Assembly: GCF_000003815.2 (NCBI RefSeq)
Contig: NC_049980.1
Span: forward strand, 26,035,815-26,099,814
DNA: 64,000 bases
Direction: 5' to 3'
DNA from: Branchiostoma floridae
Lineage: Eukaryota; Chordata; Leptocardii; Amphioxiformes; Branchiostomatidae
Below, piece after piece: positions 27,671 through 62,041 of this stretch. Numbering within the stretch: position 1 is the stretch's first letter; the number at the start of each line of letters is the position of its first letter. The notes beneath the pieces are model-generated. The model did no database searches. It saw nothing but the letters and a program-made list of their open reading frames with translations, and was not told the DNA's origin. The position numbers were made by a program, and so were the translations under genes.

Positions 27671-30600
27671 TCATTCCTTAGCCAATGCTGGCCCACCTTC
27701 AAATATTTTCTGCATAACATCATTTTCGATTGTTGTCTTTTTGCTTTTAGGCTTTTTCTTCTTTTCTCTTTCCTTTTCTTTCTTTTGCATCCACAGCCTG
27801 ATTTCCTCCTCTGTTTTCTGCTGCTTAAAGTTTCTGCCTGCACGACTGCTGACTTCCTCTCCTTTCTTCCTCTTCTTTTCTTCAATTTTCTGCACAGCTT
27901 TGCTTTTCTCAAGACTTTCTTCGAAGAATTTGGTCTCCTTCTTGGCTTGAAGGATCTCTGTCCGCATCCTCTGTTCCCTCACGGCTCGCTCGTACGCAAG
28001 CTGCTCGCTCAGATGGGTCCATTTGAAGCGATGCAGGTATTTAATGTTCCACAAGTCGCCATAGAACGGACTACGCCTCCTCGTCTCTATGGGCGTGTTG
28101 TTTAGAGACAGGGCGATCCGTTTAGCGAGCCTTTTGTCCCTGAACTCGACCCAACCCTCTACAAAGTTCTGCCGCTGCCTCTTGCCGCCCGGCTTCTTTT
28201 TCATCAACCGCTTATGTTGATCTGTAAAATTAGAGATAAAAGTTTGGCTGTATTCCACTCATGATGTTTTGGAAACATTACACACTCAGATAATTGACCT
28301 GAGAAGAAAGAAGTCAGTGTCGCCTTTTCTACAGGCAGTTAAATACCAGATTTCAATTGCAAATAAAGTAACTCAAGACGTACATACAACAAACAGCAAT
28401 TAACTCTGGTATGTAGACAGGCTATAATGCTAAAGGCAGCCTGAAATATCATGAGGAATTTTCGGAGGGAAATCATGCCGAACATTACAAGGGCCAGGAT
28501 CTTTGCGGTAAACATGTTCCCCGCAGAACACATGTGCTGTCAGGACAATGTCGTCGGTGCACTTGTAGCAATGGCAATGAGCTGTCTGTCCAGCTGGAAT
28601 GGGCCGGCAGACCTGATTTCCTGCCACCTTACACACCTGTCATGTCATTGGTGCCAAATCACACCAAGCAGATCAAAGCCCTTGTGATTCTGACCATGAA
28701 CATATGCAAAACATGGAAGAGGATATGTTTGTGCAAGCATACAGAATGACAAGCTAGCCCCCAGGCTGGCACAGCTTACAAACTTCAAAGCAACAGTTTC
28801 TTTACAAAGTTCCTCATTGTCAATCACTCTGACAGAACCACCGTCATACCTATGCAGACTTTTCATCCTAGGAAGTCTTGCAGAAAACAAAAAAGACAAG
28901 AGCCGGGTCCTCGGGGGAGTCGTGGGAAGGGCAGGTAGCTATTTGACTAAATAGGTGGAAGGAATCTTGGTAAGTGAGCATTTCCCACCTGTTACACTCT
29001 CCAGCATGGGACATGGGCAAACTGGGTACTAACAGTGGCATTCATGGGAGAAACAAAATGGAACGTGGAATTATAAGAAGCATGGTTTAGTATGAAAGCC
29101 AAAGGAAGATAGTGGCAGAAAAAAAGATACTAAGTAGTTGTCATTGTCATCATCATCATCATCTGTCAGCCCATTGAGCTTAGCAAGCTTACCAGTTAAA
29201 TAACCTGAAATGTTCAAGTACAATTCAATCTCTACTACTGAATAAAAAATGGAGATTTACTTCCGGACATTTTGAGTGACATCCTTCACTTTTCCTCAGC
29301 GTCACTAGAATGAACTGGCAGAGCAATCATCCGGAAACGTCCAGAAGTAAAGTTCTGTTTTTTTATCCAGTTGTAGAGATTGAAATGTATTTGAATATTG
29401 TTTACCTGGATGTCTAACTTTCATAAAAGTATGACCTGAAATGATGAAGGTTTCTGATCACCATAACTTACATATCATATATGTAGATTAGTAGATTTAT
29501 AGAATTATATTTCAATTTAGACAGCTCTAGTCCCATTTCGTTGATCATCTTTCATGTATCCTTCTCTAAACTTATTCTTGCTTGACTCAGCATATTGAGT
29601 CCCAATCCCCATAAGTTATGATGACAAGAACAATTATCTATCCAAAGAAAATGAGGGGAAGTTGAATAGTCTGTACAAACAGCATTTTCTGTTCTTCTAA
29701 AAAAAAAAAAAAACCACTCATCTTACTACACAATTCCTGCTTAGGTTGCCTTTGTTGATCTTTATTGACACTCAGACTATGATGTCTTTAAGAGTTTAAG
29801 ATATATGTCATTATACAAGAAATGGTTGCTTTCCCTTTTAACAAACCATACCTACATTTGTATCTCTGCATATTACGATCAGACTATGAGCAATTCATTT
29901 TTTTCAAATTCCATATAATGGGCAGGGGCAAACTTGGATCTTGGATCTTATCTACCCCTTCCAACATATGGCATTGAAGGTTATTTATAGATGGATATAG
30001 ATTTTCCATTTTTCAAAACTTATGAGTTATGACTGTTCCTACAGAACAACTTCTCATCATTCATGTACGACACAGAACACCAGCTTTAATTCATCACGTC
30101 AGAATTGTGAATGTCCTGCATTATACAACATCAGATCCCGACCTACAATCTACAAAATAGCATGTACCAAGCAAACGTTAATACGAACCTACTCAGCTAT
30201 GTTGGCAGTATTTCAACAGTGGAGATAAGAAGAGCGATACTTATACAAACTATGAGAGAAGAATGTGGCAGAAGTCCCAACAGTTCCTTAAGATCAAGAC
30301 AATACTCTGTATGTGTAACATCTGTTTATGAATATTCCTCTTATTGATGAAATGGGCAAATCACTTGTAAGTACACTGCAACTAGATCATGAATATGCAT
30401 GTTTAAACAAGGACGAAATGTTCCCCTACATCATGTGACTAAAAAGTACTGGAAAAACTCTGTAAATTAGTTTAAAAGTTTTAATAAGAGAATTTTAGAT
30501 GATATAAAATGTAACCTCTTTAGACCTCTACTTTAGTTATCTAACTCAGTGCATTTAGCCCATGATGGGCAAGAATATGCAATAAAGATCGTTGTCATTG

Positions 30601-36600: not shown

Positions 36601-38941
36601 GCAAAGACACGGCATAGCTGTGCTTATTTAGGAAGTTTTATAGATAGCCTTCTCATCTGTGGTGGTATCTTTTCACATTTCGTATTTGACGATGAATTAT
36701 TTAATAGTTTCCCAGGCCATGTTCTCGATATGTTCGCTCGTCAGCATGCACGGAAGGCGTCAAACTTGTGTACTTTTTTCAATCGTTATCTGTTGGGGCT
36801 TACCAACTGGGACACATACTCTGACTTTTCAGTTATTTACAGCAAGGTTTAGTCCATAACAAGTTGCACTTATTATGTGCAGACACTTATGCATATCTCC
36901 GCAAAAATGATTTTAAAATCCTACCGGACTTACCTGGATACCTGGATACCATCTTCAGTCAAGAAAGGCCTCTGCCTGTAGTGGACTGCTCTAGACGCAT
37001 CCCTCATGGACGTACCACAGGTGTTCCCAGTGTCGATCCAAGTTGGATTTAAACTGGTTCACTGACTCGCTCATGACTATCCTTTCTGGTAAAGAGTTCC
37101 AGTCCTTTACGACCCTCGAAACTGAAGACATGCCCCCTGATTCTAGTTTTTGCAAGTGGGATCTTCAACTTGTAACTATGGCCTCTAGTTGAAGAACCCT
37201 TAGCTTCCACGAAAAACAGATCTGACTGTAGTCTCTCTTTCCCAGTCATAATCTTAAAAACTTGAATCATATCTCCTCTCCTACGCCGGTACTCCAGGGA
37301 TGGTAGCCTCAGCTTTTTTAACCTGTCCTTGTAAGGAATGTCCTTGAGAGCAGGCACCATTTTGGTTGCTCTGCGCTGAACTCTCTCTAGCCTCTGTTTG
37401 TCCAAGGAGAAGTGTGGCCCCCAAATAATATTACCGTATTCTAGATGGGGTCTCACCATCGTTTTGAAAAGAATCGGGATTGTTTGTTCATCAATGTTGT
37501 AAAAGGCTCTATTTATGAGTCCCAGCATCATGTTACCCTTGTTCGCTGCTTTTGCAGTGTGCATGTGGAATGCGAGATTGTTGTCTATAGATACACCTAA
37601 GTCCTTCTCTTCCACGGTTTCCTCTATATTCTGTCCACCAAGAGTGTATGTGATTTTCTGATTTGTCCTCCCCAGGTGTAGAACCTTGCACTTGCTCACG
37701 TTGAAACGTAGCTGCCAGTGCTGTGACCACTGATCTACCGCCACTAGATCCTGTTGCAATGCCTCCTGATCTCTTTTGTGTTTGACTGGTCGAAAAATCT
37801 TGCTGTCATCAGCGAAGATTTTTACTTCACTAGATATTGCCTCTGGTAGATCATTGATATATATCACAAACAATATGGGTCCAAGGACACTTCCCTGTGG
37901 AATCCCGCTTTTGACCTCTTTCCAAGATGAGAATTCACCATTAACTACCACCCGTTGTTTCCTCTGGGACAAGAAGTTTCCAATCCAGTTTCGTAAGTCA
38001 CCCACCACCCCATATCTCTCCAGTTTCTGTAGTAACCGTGTATGAGGTACTGTATCAAATGCTTTACGAAAATCCAGATAGATGACATCTACTGGATCTC
38101 CTGCCTGTAGTAGTTTTGTCCACTGTTCCATGGTCACTAACAATTGAGTCATACATGAACGTCCAGGAACAAACCCGTGTTGGGCGTCAGTGAAATAGTT
38201 GTGAGAAGACATGTGTTCTACAACTTTGTCCCTAATGATGGATTCTAGCATTTTTCCTACTACGGATGTGAGACTTACAGGTCTGTAGTTCCCCGGAGAT
38301 GATTTACTGCCCTTCTTGTGAATGGGTGTAACATGCGCCTGTTTCCACCCTTCAGGTAACTCAGAAGATGCAATGGATTTCTTAAAAAGAATTGTGAGAG
38401 GCGTAGCAAGGTCATGAGCCAGTTCCTTGAGAAACCGTGGATGCAAGTTATCGGGGCCTGCAGATTTTGCTGGGTTAAGCTCGGCCAATTTCTTGAGGAC
38501 TACTTCCTCAGTGATCTCTAAACCTTCCAATGACTTTGGACCCCTACCGGACTTTGGACCCCTCCCGTTAACGTTACAACAATAAAATTTAACCTCCTCA
38601 TAACGTTATCAGAAGTTTGGAAGCTTTTGCGAATTGCAGATCAGATCTTTACAGTTCACTTGCCCTGGTCATTTTACAAAATTATATCACTATAACTGTT
38701 ATAACGTTAGTTATATATATAATTAAATTATGCTGAATCTTGTGTTGAAGATCACTCCTAAACCGGAAGTGGGGAGGGGGGCGAAGCAAATTCACATGCA
38801 ACATTCGCCCCATTTTTCTGAAATATAACGCTCCATATTAAAGATTTTAATTCAAACCTGTGCTACTGGTTACCTACCTTTAGTCTGTTCTGTCTCCGGG
38901 TCACTGGAACTTGAGTCTTCCTTCTCTCCAGCTCCAGACAT
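27671..38941 (-). CDS. ABT1: ABT1/ESF2 nucleolar RRM protein, 3 exons
   Basis: Exons: 38878-38941 (start ATG at 38941), 35573-35767 and 27671-28221. Splice phases are 1 and 1, total 810 bp, 269 aa; human ABT1 is 272 aa. The N-terminus is acidic ([10 protein letters not shown]). The RRM begins at about residue 52 with [18 protein letters not shown] and [13 protein letters not shown], continues in exon 3 with [18 protein letters not shown], and is followed by the ABT1 hallmark [19 protein letters not shown] and [16 protein letters not shown]. The C-terminus is a Lys/Glu-rich, probably helical tail. Family members bind RNA in the nucleolus and are needed for small-subunit rRNA processing (yeast Esf2). 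The RRM is split by a 7.3-kb intron containing several fold-back elements, and the first intron carries a CR1 insertion; both are large beside introns elsewhere in the window. Confidence 0.92.
29219..29389. mobile_element. Fold-back element (MITE-like), ABT1 intron 2
   Basis: Roughly 50-bp arms 29219-29268 and 29339-29389 are inverted copies of one another (ATTCAATCTCTAC, AAAAAA, TTTACTTCCGGAC pattern) around a roughly 70-bp centre. No open frame. The target duplication is not clear. Confidence 0.65.
31681..31798. mobile_element. Fold-back MITE, ABT1 intron 2
   Basis: Left arm AAGCCTCAGTACCATCCTCC..TGACCG is mirrored by CGGTCACT..GAGGATGGAACTCAGGCTT, with further pairing inside (CTCAATCATTTTGCTTG / CAAGCAAAAGGATTGAG). 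It resembles the 25049-25172 element at its ends (AGCCT..CCATCCT). Confidence 0.75.
31850..32220. mobile_element. Non-autonomous DNA element with ~35-bp terminal inverted repeats
   Basis: The left end AGGCCACACCGATTTAATTT..GGTTCACGGAT (from about 31851) is repeated inverted at 32186-32220 with one or two changes. The interior is A/T-rich without a coding frame. The size of about 370 bp fits a MITE. Target duplication uncertain (TA possible). Confidence 0.75.
34100..34222. repeat. (CA)n-rich simple repeat
   Basis: Long imperfect CA tract with interspersed CATA, CATG and CATAC units. The minus-strand Val/Cys open frame across it is a repeat artefact. Confidence 0.9.
36932..38542 (-). mobile_element. 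5'-truncated CR1-type LINE inserted in ABT1 intron 1
   Basis: A minus-strand frame (37049 to about 38542) encodes a non-LTR reverse transcriptase fragment of about 490 aa. Visible landmarks are [58 protein letters not shown], and a catalytic FADD (the usual Y/F-ADD), with a C-terminal [14 protein letters not shown] region. The endonuclease half is missing, so this is a 5'-truncated dead copy. The 3' end (low coordinate) carries two copies of the octamer GGTATCCA (about 36938-36955), typical of CR1 tails. CCTACCGGACTT occurs at 36920-36931 and 38543-38554, probably the target-site duplication. The frame is still open, suggesting recent insertion. An 18-bp local repeat at the 5' edge makes that boundary slightly uncertain. 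Confidence 0.88.
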
Positions 38942-54377: not shown

Positions 54378-57300
54378 CTAAAGGCCAAATGCATCCAGAA
54401 ACTGCCGGTGTGACGCCTCCCAGTACTTGGATGTCAGCAGTTTCTCCTTGAGTTTTCTTGCGGCCTGGAACTCCCTGTGCCCATCCGTCAGAATCTTGAC
54501 GATCCGCTTGGCCAGTGTTTTGGCGGCCTCTTCATCATCATCTTCGATCTCCACGATCAGACGGTCGAAATCCGGATCTTGGCTCCTTAAGAACCAGGCA
54601 AGCCCAGACTTGTGGGAGACCAGGACTGGCACCCCTGCAGCGATAGCCTCCAGACCGACCAGTCCGAATGGCTCTGCACGAGACGGCATCAGAACGACAT
54701 GGGCCTGCTGCATGTCCTTGGACAGATCTTCTTGGGTGCCGTACTTCAGGGGAGTGAATTTACCTTTCTTCTCGTTGGCTTGGATGATTGCCTTGCTTTC
54801 TGGGAAATCTTCAGCTGTTACGCCACGGGCTCGCCACTTTGTGTGCGGTAGACGGTCGAATACGATGCCCATGGACTTCGCAACAAGGTCGTAGCCTTTC
54901 AGCCTCTCCACGCCCTTGACCCTGCTGATGGACAGCACCACTTTCATTTCGGTGTCGACATATGTCATCTCCGTCGTGCTGAAGACGTTGGATGGCTCGG
55001 GCAAAAACTCGAAATGAGGTTTCAGTTGCCTTGTTTGACTCTTGTAGTAGTCATACATCAACGGGCCCACCGAGAATATCACGTCAGCATGCTTCAGGTC
55101 TTCTAGGATGCTGTCATTCTCGTCTCCGATGGTCAGCACCTTGGCATCACTCTTGTAGTGGCTGACATCTTCTGGGATCACATGAGTGACCTGGACGAGT
55201 TTGGCGTCGGGAAGACGTTGCTCCCTAATCATCCGTGCTGCGCGGCTCGTGAGGTTAACATGGCCGATGATAAAGCCTATGTTTGGTGGCAGCTTCGGGT
55301 AACGACTCTGGTGGTCCCAGGTCAGCCAATTGAGCTCTGGCTGTCTCGGATCACCAGGAAAGGTCGCTGGAACGATCAGTTGAACGCCATCTGTAGCCGC
55401 GTCATTCTTGTCCTCTTCTGTGGCTTCCAGGACTGTGCTGTAGACCTCTGCTCCTTTAGAGACCAGTAGGCGCGCCATCCCGCGGTGGATGGTGGATATG
55501 CCCCCCTTCCTTGTCCCGTACTCGTCGTTGAGCATCAGCACCACGGGCTTTGATCTCGAACCTTAAAACAACCAAAATCAAATATAACTTCAAAAACAAA
55601 ATCCTCACTTTTACTTTATTTGTCCAGTAACATACACTCAGGGCACTCATTGCCTTGTCGGTCAAATCTTTAAATAAGGCAGATCAGAAATCATGGGAGA
55701 GTTTTTGTTTGTCATTCATGATTAATGTTTAAAAGTTTCTGCTTGGCCTTGAAGGTAAAGCATAGTCCATGGATTAATAGACTGTTAGTCCACGAAATAG
55801 AATATAAATGACACCCTATCAATTTACAAAAAAATGTAAATTTGACTCATGGTCCCTACCGCTCTTCCGACGTCTTTTGGGAGACGCTGCCGATCCAGCA
55901 CCACTACCGTCAGACTCTGCTGCTTCTGGAGACACAATGTAAATTCAGCATAGGTTCACTGTTGAAAGGTATTGACCAAGATGGCAGGGGTCCTCATTTT
56001 TAGAAAAGGCGCTATGCTGCGTTACTTTTGTTGTTCTTACATGGCTATGGCTGTCTTTAACACTGTTTTTAGAGGCACAGCCCCATGCTGCGTCTTGAAT
56101 GCTGACCTGCTAACTACAGAATTGGCTTAAATCATAGGAGAAGCAATGCAATTCTCATGAACGCAAAAAATGATAAAGTGCTTGTGCGTGAGCAAGCCAG
56201 TAATACACACCTGTTATCCTCCTCTTGCCCGAACCGCCTGTCCTTTTTCCGGCCCCAGCACCATCTGCTAGTCCTGCGGAGGATAATGTGCGGACAATTA
56301 GGTATACTCTTAACATATACGGAATATTTGGGTTTGGTGCAAAAACATACTGCTCCATACCCAAACGATAAATGACGCCTACTGAACATAACATTTCTCG
56401 TGGTTCGAATGTAACTTAAAGATTAAACGATATAGATTGAAAATATGCCATTTTACAGTTTTCTGCCGATATTCATTAGTTAAATCTGTAGAGTAATTCA
56501 CCTGCAGCTTCCCTCAAAGCTCTCTCTATGGGTCCAGCTTGTGGCGTCGGCTCCTTTTCCAACTCTGTTATAAAGGTTTCAAGTAGATTTCAAGATTATT
56601 GTATTTCATGTCTTTGGTATCGAGGCTACGTATACCCAGTCGAATTTGTCCTTATCTTTGGAGATTTGAAGATTTAAAGGAAAAGAAATGACCAAGTTTC
56701 AGACATGTTTGCAAGTTGCAACCTAACCTGACATGCGTGATAACAGGTATACGTGCTTGCTTTCGCTCAGTTCAATCACCGTTGCCCTGAGTAAATATCT
56801 TCCTCACTCATTAAAATGAAATTGAAAAGCTCATACCTGGGTATTTTTTCTTTAGACCCTTCACAATCCCCTCCAGTTCTGCATCAGTTAGAGCCTCCAT
56901 CAGCACCCCCATGGTCGCATCGGGTCCCTTCCGCAGTCGCCACTCCCCCAGCATGTCTTCGCAACGAGATATGTCATCGATGTTTCTGCCGGCGATGTTA
57001 TTGATTGTTGGAGTGTCAAAGGCAAGAAAGCCGGCCAGATCCCTCCACTTATTGCTGACCCTGTTCTTGATGAAGTAGATGTACCTAAATGGAATGTCTA
57101 AAAACGAAAAGAAATGGAATTGAATTTGTCACATTATCGTCTCACGGTCATTTTCTGAGCTTCGAAATTCAACCATCAAGGCCCTAGGTGAAATTTAAAT
57201 GGCTGACCATGCTATGTTTCTAACATTCGAGTGTCCTGCTTTCCTTGAAAGTGTATGATAAAGAAATATCTCTTGTTTGGGCTGTAGGTGGTTTATTACC

Positions 57301-57527
57301 TACGTATCGTAATCACTATTGTTAAGTTACAGGATATAGTTGGTGTGATGGGATACTTGGAGAATTGGAAGAATGGTTTGGCTTTGTCCGATGGTGTAGC
57401 TTGTTCTGGATGACTCATTGCAAGTACAATATTTATTTCGTACCTGCTAATGTTTGATTTAAAAAAGTAAAATAGGCTGGAAGGAGTATCAGAAATCGCA
57501 TATTGTCTCACCTTGGTCCGACATCAT
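54378..57527 (-). CDS. Death-domain / GT-B glycosyltransferase fusion (copy A), 6 coding exons
   Basis: Coding exons: 57512-57527, 56837-57097, 56502-56564, 56211-56273, 55860-55925, 54378-55561; total 1653 bp, 550 aa. An in-frame stop lies directly before the ATG ATG start. Residues 6-92 form a Death-domain fold: VSNKWRDLAGFLAF, PTINNIA, then MLGEWRLRKGPDATMGVLMEAL and ELEGIVKGLKKKYP. Three short exons encode a Gly/Ser/Lys/Arg linker (KRTGGSGKRRI, SPKRRRKS; possible nuclear-localisation signals). The rest is a GT-B glycosyltransferase of GT4/Glycos_transf_1 type: an N-terminal NDEYGTRKGGIS nucleotide-site loop and, at residues 453-461, the EX7E motif in EPFGLVGLEAIAAGVPV. There is no signal peptide or membrane segment, so a cytosolic or nuclear protein is expected. 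All introns are phase 1. Acceptor and donor sugar are unknown. Function (modification of a signalling partner after Death-domain recruitment) is inference; I recognise no vertebrate orthologue. Confidence 0.85.
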
Positions 57528-60595: not shown

Positions 60596-62041
60596 CTAAA
60601 GGCCGAATATCTCCAGAAACTTGTTGTGTGACGCGACCCAGTATTTTGAGCCCAAAAGCCTCTCCTTCAGCCTTCTTGCAGCCTCGAACTCCTTACTCCC
60701 GTTGTTCAGGATCCTGATGATCCGCTTGGCCAGTGTTTTGGCGGCTTCGTCGTCGTCCTCATCTGCAATCTCCACAATGGGGCGGTCCCAGTCGGGATCT
60801 TGGTCCAAGAACCAGGCAAGACCAGACTTGTTGGAGACCAGGACTGGCACCCCTGCAGCGATAGCCTCCAGACCTACAAGTCCGAATGGTTCTGCACGAG
60901 ACGGCATCAGGACGACATGGGCCTGCCGCATGTCCTTGGACAGATCTTCCTGGGTGCCGTACTGCAGGGGAGTGAAGGGTACGAACTCAACTTTATTGGC
61001 TTGGATGATTGCCTTGCTTTCTGGGAAATCTTCACGCTTTATGCCCCGGGCTCGCCATTTGGTGTTAGGCCGAACCTTGATCACCTCACCTAGGGACTTC
61101 GCGACCAGATCGTAGCCTTTTAGCCTCTCCACGCCCTTGACCCTGCCAACGGACAGCACCACTTTCGTTTTCGTGTCGACATATTTCACTTGCGTGTTCT
61201 GGAAGATGGCAGACGGCTCAGGCAAAAACTCCAGGTGGTGGTCTTCTTCTCTTGTCTCGTTTTTGTAATAGTCATACAAGCGTGGGCCCACTGAGACTAT
61301 CACATCAGCATGCTCCAGGTCATCCAGAATTCTTGCTTTCTCCTCTTCTATGCGCAACTCCCTTTCTTCACTCTTGAAGCGTGCGACGTCTTCTGGAATC
61401 ACGTGAGTGACCTGGACGAGTTTGGCGTTAGGAAAGCGGAGCTCCTTGATCTGCCGTGCTGCGCGGCTTGTGATGTGTACATGACCGACGACGAAGCCTA
61501 CATTTGGTGGCAGATTTGGGTAACGATTCCGGTGGTCCCAGGTCAGCCAATCGAGCACTGGCTGTCTTGAATCACCCTGAAAGGTCGTTGGAGAGATCAG
61601 TTGAACGCCATCAGCTGCCGCGTCATCCTCGTCCTCTTGTGTGGCTTCCAGGACTGTGCTGTAGACCTTGGCTCCTTTAGAAACCAGTAGGCACGCCATC
61701 CCGCGGTGGATGGTGGAAATGCCGCCCTTCCTAGTTCCATACTCATCATTGATCAGCAGCACCAGAGGCGGGCCTCCAGATCCGTGTGCTAGTCAAAGAA
61801 ATAAAGATATAATTAGGAAACAAATCAATGTCAAGACGGTGACAAAATCAACTATAATAATGACCTTTATGTTTTATCTCTGAGGCAAGGCACTCTCTCG
61901 ATACAAAAATGTCGACGTCAGAGGATACTAACTTCAGGTGGGCTTTGGTCCCAACAAGAGCAAGAAAGGTGCTAAGAAGGAAGGATATAGAAGACAGGTC
62001 GAAATGAAAACATCGTCACGGTGGTATTTTTTACCTTCCAT
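60596..62041 (-). CDS. GT-B glycosyltransferase without Death domain (copy B), 2 exons
   Basis: Exon 1 is only 7 coding bases (62035-62041, ATG GAA G) followed by a GTAAAA donor; exon 2 is 60596-61788. The phase-1 junction is the same as that joining linker and enzyme in copy A. Total 1200 bp, 399 aa. The enzyme is collinear with copy A from INDEYGTRKGGISTIHRGMA to the EYGT-opposed C-terminus FLEIFGL, with the EX7E motif at residues 302-310 (EPFGLVGLE). The closest agreement is around EX7E; the middle (residues about 130-190) is more diverged. The 246-bp intron has no room for a Death-domain exon, so this gene encodes the bare enzyme. A shared promoter block and tandem same-strand layout show it arose by local duplication with copy A. 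Substrate unknown. The start is inferred from phase and position just downstream of the conserved promoter block. Confidence 0.82.

Follow-up and report, generated by a model that had tools for sequence, protein, structure and literature searches.

A predicted Death domain–glycosyltransferase fusion gene in the lancelet Branchiostoma floridae

Introduction

In the portions of the account by Kaur (2021, PMC8195603) available to us, family 4 glycosyltransferases (GT4) are described as potential effectors of bacterial conflict systems that some animals acquired by lateral transfer. The same portions report GT4-TRADD-N-LRR proteins in cephalochordates, hemichordates and cnidarians, and a coral with more than 500 GT4 copies. 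With these animal GT4-conflict proteins, the lancelet gene described here shares the enzyme family, the expansion in marine animals, the fusion to immune and cell-death domains and the prediction of an effector role, whereas neither a Death-GT4 fusion nor a Death module shared with caspases is found in those portions of PMC8195603. The domain order differs as well: in the cephalochordate GT4-TRADD-N-LRR proteins (Kaur, 2021) the GT4 precedes TRADD-N, followed by LRR, whereas the GT4 exon of the gene described here ends in a stop codon, and the families that Pfam detects in its predicted protein of 550 aa are those of Death and glycosyltransferases alone, with no TRADD-N or LRR.

Corals possess proteins that combine NACHT with a glycosyltransferase, according to the excerpts at hand (PMC4083563, PMC5013795, PMC12314368). 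Like the lancelet family, the coral families in these excerpts are large, tandemly arranged and associate a GT4-type enzyme with sensor domains; the coral enzyme is joined to NACHT, TPR, LRR or ankyrin parts, whereas the lancelet gene is a minimal Death-linker-GT4 arrangement without a sensor. For amphioxus, the available part of Zhang et al. (2008, PMC2575513) reports the shuffling of domains, caspases whose prodomain is a DD, DED or CARD, and proteins that combine LRR with caspase, and its main text contains no word beginning with "glycos". Caspases with a Death-fold prodomain have, as does the present gene, an N-terminal Death-fold adaptor and a C-terminal enzyme, which is a protease in their case and a glycosyltransferase here. 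Our search, which covered PMC8195603 apart from its Figure 6A and source data, found no published description of a Death-GT4 protein or of a GT4/caspase exchange in lancelets. What seems new relative to the known GT4-conflict family is that the closest copy of the Death-linker module lies before a caspase, and that GT4 and caspases alternate after COR-B.

Results

Gene Structure of the Death-GT4 Locus

We analyzed a stretch of 64,000 nucleotides of the Branchiostoma floridae genome (the window). Six exons on its minus strand, from 57527 to 54378, join into one open frame of 550 aa (Table 1), and all five introns have GT..AG boundaries and lie in phase 1. A first-pass annotation of the DNA had proposed such a frame, spliced from a Death-domain exon through three linker exons to a full GT-B enzyme, and the frame holds over all 550 codons. 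Exon 1 is the weakest part of the gene model; it has no alignment in L044 or L043, the two loci compared, and an out-of-frame ATG lies immediately 5' of the start codon used.

Table 1. Predicted exons of the Death-GT4 gene and the tandem GT4 exon, in window positions.
Feature	Position	Strand	Length (nt)	Basis
Exon 1, start codon (MMSDQ), phase 1 donor	57512..57527	-	16	GT donor and frame
Exon 2, Death domain	56837..57097	-	261	Pfam Death 1.3e-11; AlphaFold2 pLDDT 93.8; paralogue in L044
Exon 3, linker ELEKEPTPQAGPIERALREAAG	56502..56564	-	63	Length and splice sites same in L044
Exon 4, Gly/Ala/basic linker	56211..56273	-	63	End of exon and donor align with L044
Exon 5, linker with NLS-like SPKRRRKSG	55860..55925	-	66	Acceptor, donor and reading frame conserved in L044
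Exon 6, GT4-conflict glycosyltransferase with EX7E	54378..55561	-	1184	Stop at 54378-54380; Pfam PF20706
Tandem paralogue GT4 exon	60596..61792	-		74% identical; Pfam PF20706 1.6e-76; phase 1 acceptor candidate

The model stands above chance, since L044 contains paralogues of exons 2 and 3 that agree with them exactly in length and are bounded by GT/AG sites. Ka/Ks, computed for exons 2, 3 and 6 only, shows purifying selection on the predicted coding sequence of all three: the Death exon has a value of 0.45 over 86 codons, exon 3 one of 0.37 over 21 codons, and the GT exon of the window values of 0.12-0.33 against five paralogues. In an independent copy, L043 (C17), a Death domain, a GSGA-rich linker and GT4 likewise splice into one open frame, all in phase 1. 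Support for exons 2-6 forming one predicted gene is good and indirect, and at the level of sequence the predicted fusion of a Death domain with an intact GT-B glycosyltransferase is confirmed.

The Death Domain

Death domains are the plugs of cell-death and immune proteins, and assemble Death-domain proteins together. A 93-aa piece, comprising exon 2 and the first residues of exon 3, matches Pfam Death at 1.3e-11 (44.9 bits against a cut-off of 22.6), which bears out the first-pass call for this exon, and the match persists at 3.6e-10 when the whole 550-aa protein is searched. A nine-row lancelet profile matched the solved Death domains of THOC1 (1e-12), RIPK1 (1e-11), FADD (3e-11) and PIDD (4e-9), and those of ankyrins as well. 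Structural modeling with AlphaFold2 gave a confident, all-helical model of the Death part (pLDDT 93.8), in which DSSP assigns five helices, two of them long.

The GT4-Conflict Enzyme

The C-terminal part of the protein (residues 165-543) matches Pfam PF20706 (GT4-conflict, described by Pfam as "Family 4 Glycosyltransferase in conflict systems") at 7.3e-73, with 246.2 bits against a cut-off of 26 and coverage of profile positions 1-384 of 385. The families Glycos_transf_1 (6.3e-15) and Glyco_trans_1_4 (1.2e-12) match the same protein; the first of these had been suggested as a check on the enzyme, for which PF20706 is the sharper name. At E-values up to 1, Pfam reports nothing on the 550 aa beyond GT4-type families and Death. 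Membership among the enzymes that glycosylate Death domains is therefore not supported, nor is the first-pass analogy to bacterial enzymes of that kind, the full-length bacterial relatives found being Streptomyces GT4-conflict proteins. Three of the ten bacterial loci found match over the full length. Two of the Streptomyces proteins, L045 and L046, read as ATPase-TPR-GT4, with a GT4-conflict domain that is C-terminal as in the window gene and 30-31% identical over almost the whole domain, but an AAA ATPase and TPR take the place of the Death domain. As for a known anti-phage protein, neither the Death part nor the GT part matched a PADLOC anti-phage profile.

Both glutamates of the EX7E motif are invariant in the 27 aligned lancelet copies. 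The AlphaFold2 model of the GT part has a GT-B fold (mean pLDDT 84.8, pTM 0.85), and Foldseek ranks sucrose-phosphate synthase (TM to query 0.70), BshA (0.65) and MshA (0.73 for 3c4q, 0.43 for 3c48) as its best PDB matches, at 16-18% identity. The full GT-B enzyme of the first-pass annotation is thus borne out by both profile and model, and, given the invariant EX7E glutamates and the modeled GT-B fold, the GT4 part is likely to be an active retaining glycosyltransferase.

The linker joining the two parts contains, in exons 4-5, a basic run KRRIT..SPKRRRKSGSRSK, which we take to be a classical NLS-like motif; basic stretches are also present in the linkers of the GT4 copies on C4 and C18. Because of this run, the location of the protein is not fixed as cytosolic, the term used for the enzyme at first.

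A Related Death-Linker Module Lies Beside a Caspase

The nearest relative of the Death exon, at 74% identity, is in L044 (C2:30.687 Mb), 4.6 Mb away on the same chromosome. There the Death exon, at 261 nt, and the linker exon after it, at 63 nt, have exactly the lengths of exons 2 and 3 of the window gene, with GT/AG sites, and the likeness in DNA continues into intron sequence on their flanks (83% over 330 nt, 78% over 252 nt). L044 also aligns with the end of exon 4 and the entire exon 5, splice sites included; gaps in exon 5 are of 6 and 3 nt only, and those in the introns are of 1, 2, 3, 4, 6 and 10 nt. The segment of exons 4-5 and intron 5 (L044 83-780) is placed upstream, not downstream, of the L044 Death exon, and L044 is thus a rearranged duplicate.

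Downstream of the L044 Death and linker exons, on the same strand, lie exons that match caspase (Pfam 2.7e-8, 2.2e-26 and 6.2e-9), and the joined caspase p20 part has caspase-2 as its best PDB match (3e-35); the link from Death to caspase is one of exon order and strand only. About 23 kb before the L044 Death exon, a GT4 fragment (C2:30664390, residues 242-394) is 84% identical to the window enzyme. This is no proof of a duplicate of the window gene, as identity over the same residues is 81% for both the tandem copy and L015, and the fragment is only slightly closer. Further caspase and Death matches are found on the other side of this fragment, at C2:30658342-30660283 and 30661614, on the opposite strand.

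GT4 Copies and Their Partner Domains

A six-frame search found at least 103 genome matches to the GT exon, of which 70 span at least 370 of the 394 residues, and a single one of these 70 has an internal stop; all counts of GT4 matches are lower bounds. We read the upstream DNA of 29 copies, a non-random set picked mostly by score or closeness, and searched it with Pfam in open frames selected by eye. A Death domain lies upstream of GT4 in 11 of the 29, eight by Pfam (the window, L022, L023, L024, L029, L030, L042 and L043) and three by likeness alone (L032, L033 and L034). The order of a Death domain on two exons, a linker exon that is basic or coiled-coil, and GT4 recurs in L030 (C4) and in four copies on C18 (L029, L032, L033 and L034), with Pfam Death matches of 1.2e-9 for the joined exons of L030 and 7e-6 for the second exon of L029.

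Other partners over the Pfam cut-offs upstream of GT4 are FIIND (L022, L024), LRR-Roc-COR (L015, L025, L026), OTU (L010; L019, which lies upstream of the first L010 copy; L011, L015 and L025), COR-A (L010, L028) and IIGP (L012). LRR stands ahead of Death in L029, L033 and L034, and Roc and COR accompany Death in L022 and L023, where COR-A is slightly below the cut-off, as is a DED in L011. No partner over the cut-off was found in 10 of the 29 copies (the tandem copy, L013, L014, L016, L017, L018, L020, L021, L027 and L031), L018 having a COR match below it. The upstream DNA of the tandem copy, which is partly masked, yielded neither a Death exon nor another N-terminal partner. TIR domains suspected by eye in L028 and L016 gave no Pfam match, and the ZU5/FIIND-like stretches in the same two loci were rejected for the same reason. 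With distances of up to about 7 kb, some of the upstream domains are perhaps in other transcripts than the GT4. The IIGP open frame of L012 (252-1310; interferon-inducible GTPase, 8e-32) is on the same strand as the GT4 exon, 6.3 kb before it.

A candidate phase-1 acceptor is present at the GT exon in 21 of 27 copies and absent in six, several copies also having candidates in other phases. In a tree of 32 rows (29 lancelet and 3 Streptomyces enzymes), the lancelet enzymes are split from the Streptomyces ones with a support of 100/100. With Death+FIIND counted separately and the 12 unlabelled rows left out, the Death label changes at least twice on well-supported branches, from which it follows that the GT4 cassette has switched partners.

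Alternation of GT4 and Caspases After COR-B

On C14, COR-B matches are followed on the same strand, within 0.8-3 kb, by GT4 (1945250, 1970983, 2902172 and 2917299) or by caspase (1987161, 2020305, 2036250, 2931986 and 18609715), so that neighboring COR-B-bearing copies at 1.94-2.05 Mb and 2.90-2.93 Mb differ in their effector. L026 and L025, on C14 and of the GT4 kind, are LRR-Roc-COR; the caspase-bearing copies of C14 are placed by coordinates only. Among all 40 COR-B matches, the next 5 kb downstream on the same strand contain GT4 in 5, a caspase-family match in 7 (two of the seven weak, on C5 with 36 bits and C6 with 29 bits) and neither in 28.

The proximity of GT4 clusters to caspase matches was compared with rotations of all 103 GT4 and 94 caspase places, the sizes of several contigs being estimated. 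Five of 40 clusters lie within 20 kb of a caspase match (rotation mean 0.28, p 0.0005), five within 50 kb (mean 0.50, p 0.001) and six within 100 kb (mean 0.82, p 0.0015). Rotation of a subset (84 GT4 and 39 or 23 caspase places), also with estimated sizes for several contigs, placed 4 or 5 of 37 clusters near a caspase with p 0.0005-0.002 over six settings. By coordinates alone, 80 of 88 GT4 places being covered, Death matches lie within 20 kb of GT4 on the same strand 12 times upstream and 9 times downstream; as the clusters confuse this count, it was discarded as evidence.

From the Death and linker exons before the caspase in L044 and the alternation after COR-B on C14, GT4 seems to take the slot of a caspase on two scaffolds, and the GT4 exon seems, as far as genomic arrangement can tell, to be a shuffled cassette in an effector position that is elsewhere held by a caspase.

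Discussion

We regard the Death-GT4 protein as probably a two-part executor, in which a Death domain is connected by a flexible basic linker to a GT4-conflict enzyme of the retaining GT-B type that is clustered by Death assembly. The Death domains of an activated sensor would nucleate the Death domain of the Death-GT4 protein, for which relatives of the window gene carry candidate sensor parts (LRR, Roc-COR, FIIND and ankyrin). The assembly would raise the local concentration of GT4, and the clustered enzyme could then move sugar from a nucleotide donor onto molecules of the invader or the host near the platform, a transfer that may constitute a cell-death or antimicrobial step. The first-pass annotation had suggested a signalling or immune effector; a role as an effector in immunity or cell death agrees with the enzyme family, the GT4/caspase alternation and the conflict and immune domains found with GT4 (Death in the window gene; Death, FIIND, LRR-Roc-COR, OTU and IIGP upstream of paralogues). 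The same annotation knew of no described function for the architecture; for the enzyme family, an effector prediction in conflict systems is published in the available portions of PMC8195603.

Since relatives of its parts stand beside caspases in the same positions, the enzyme may serve as an alternative executor in cell death or immunity. That the lancelet glycosyltransferase serves as such an alternative to caspases, on shared Death and LRR-Roc-COR scaffolds and exchanged by recombination in phase-1 introns, is a tentative extension that we hold to be possible and less probable than the two-part executor itself. If it were true, lancelets would have in sugar transfer a second currency for executing cell death or immunity. 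Bacterial defence-like systems, corals and lancelets all contain GT4-conflict enzymes, and the available portions of the accounts name no target for them. The minimal Death-GT4 gene and the Death-linker copy before a caspase would provide a simple natural test of which molecules are modified, and of whether the caspase is replaced or complemented.

Glycosylation of Death-domain partners by GT4 upon assembly, the view taken in the first-pass annotation, which would tune or block apoptosis or NF-kB signalling, appears unlikely to us. Death domains do gather Death-domain proteins, and with a close Death-linker copy upstream of caspase exons the platform could be common to GT4 and caspase proteins; however, Pfam does not link the sequence of the window protein to any enzyme known to modify Death domains, the bacterial relatives are fused to ATPase-TPR parts, and 18 of the 29 lancelet copies have no Death match upstream. 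Somewhat more doubtful still is that GT4 consumes or alters a nucleotide sugar or another small metabolite, and so acts by shutting down metabolism instead of glycosylating proteins. Metabolites are often targeted by bacterial conflict systems, and BshA and MshA, both glycosyltransferases of small molecules, are among the best-matching folds, but at 15-18% identity fold likeness does not give the acceptor. It is highly improbable that our model wrongly joins two adjacent genes, one giving a Death-linker transcript and the other a GT4 transcript: the tandem GT4 exon does stand without a Death exon found upstream, but phase-1 splice sites agree at every junction, the C4 copy and the four C18 copies keep the order of Death exons, linker exon and GT4, L043 splices in the same manner independently, and exon 6 has no in-frame ATG ahead of the first strand of the enzyme.

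Elsewhere on the minus strand of the window, two further open frames were noted by eye: one of 518 aa at 37049-38605, resembling a LINE-type reverse transcriptase, and one at 27671-28258, resembling a protein of the ABT1/ESF2 type.
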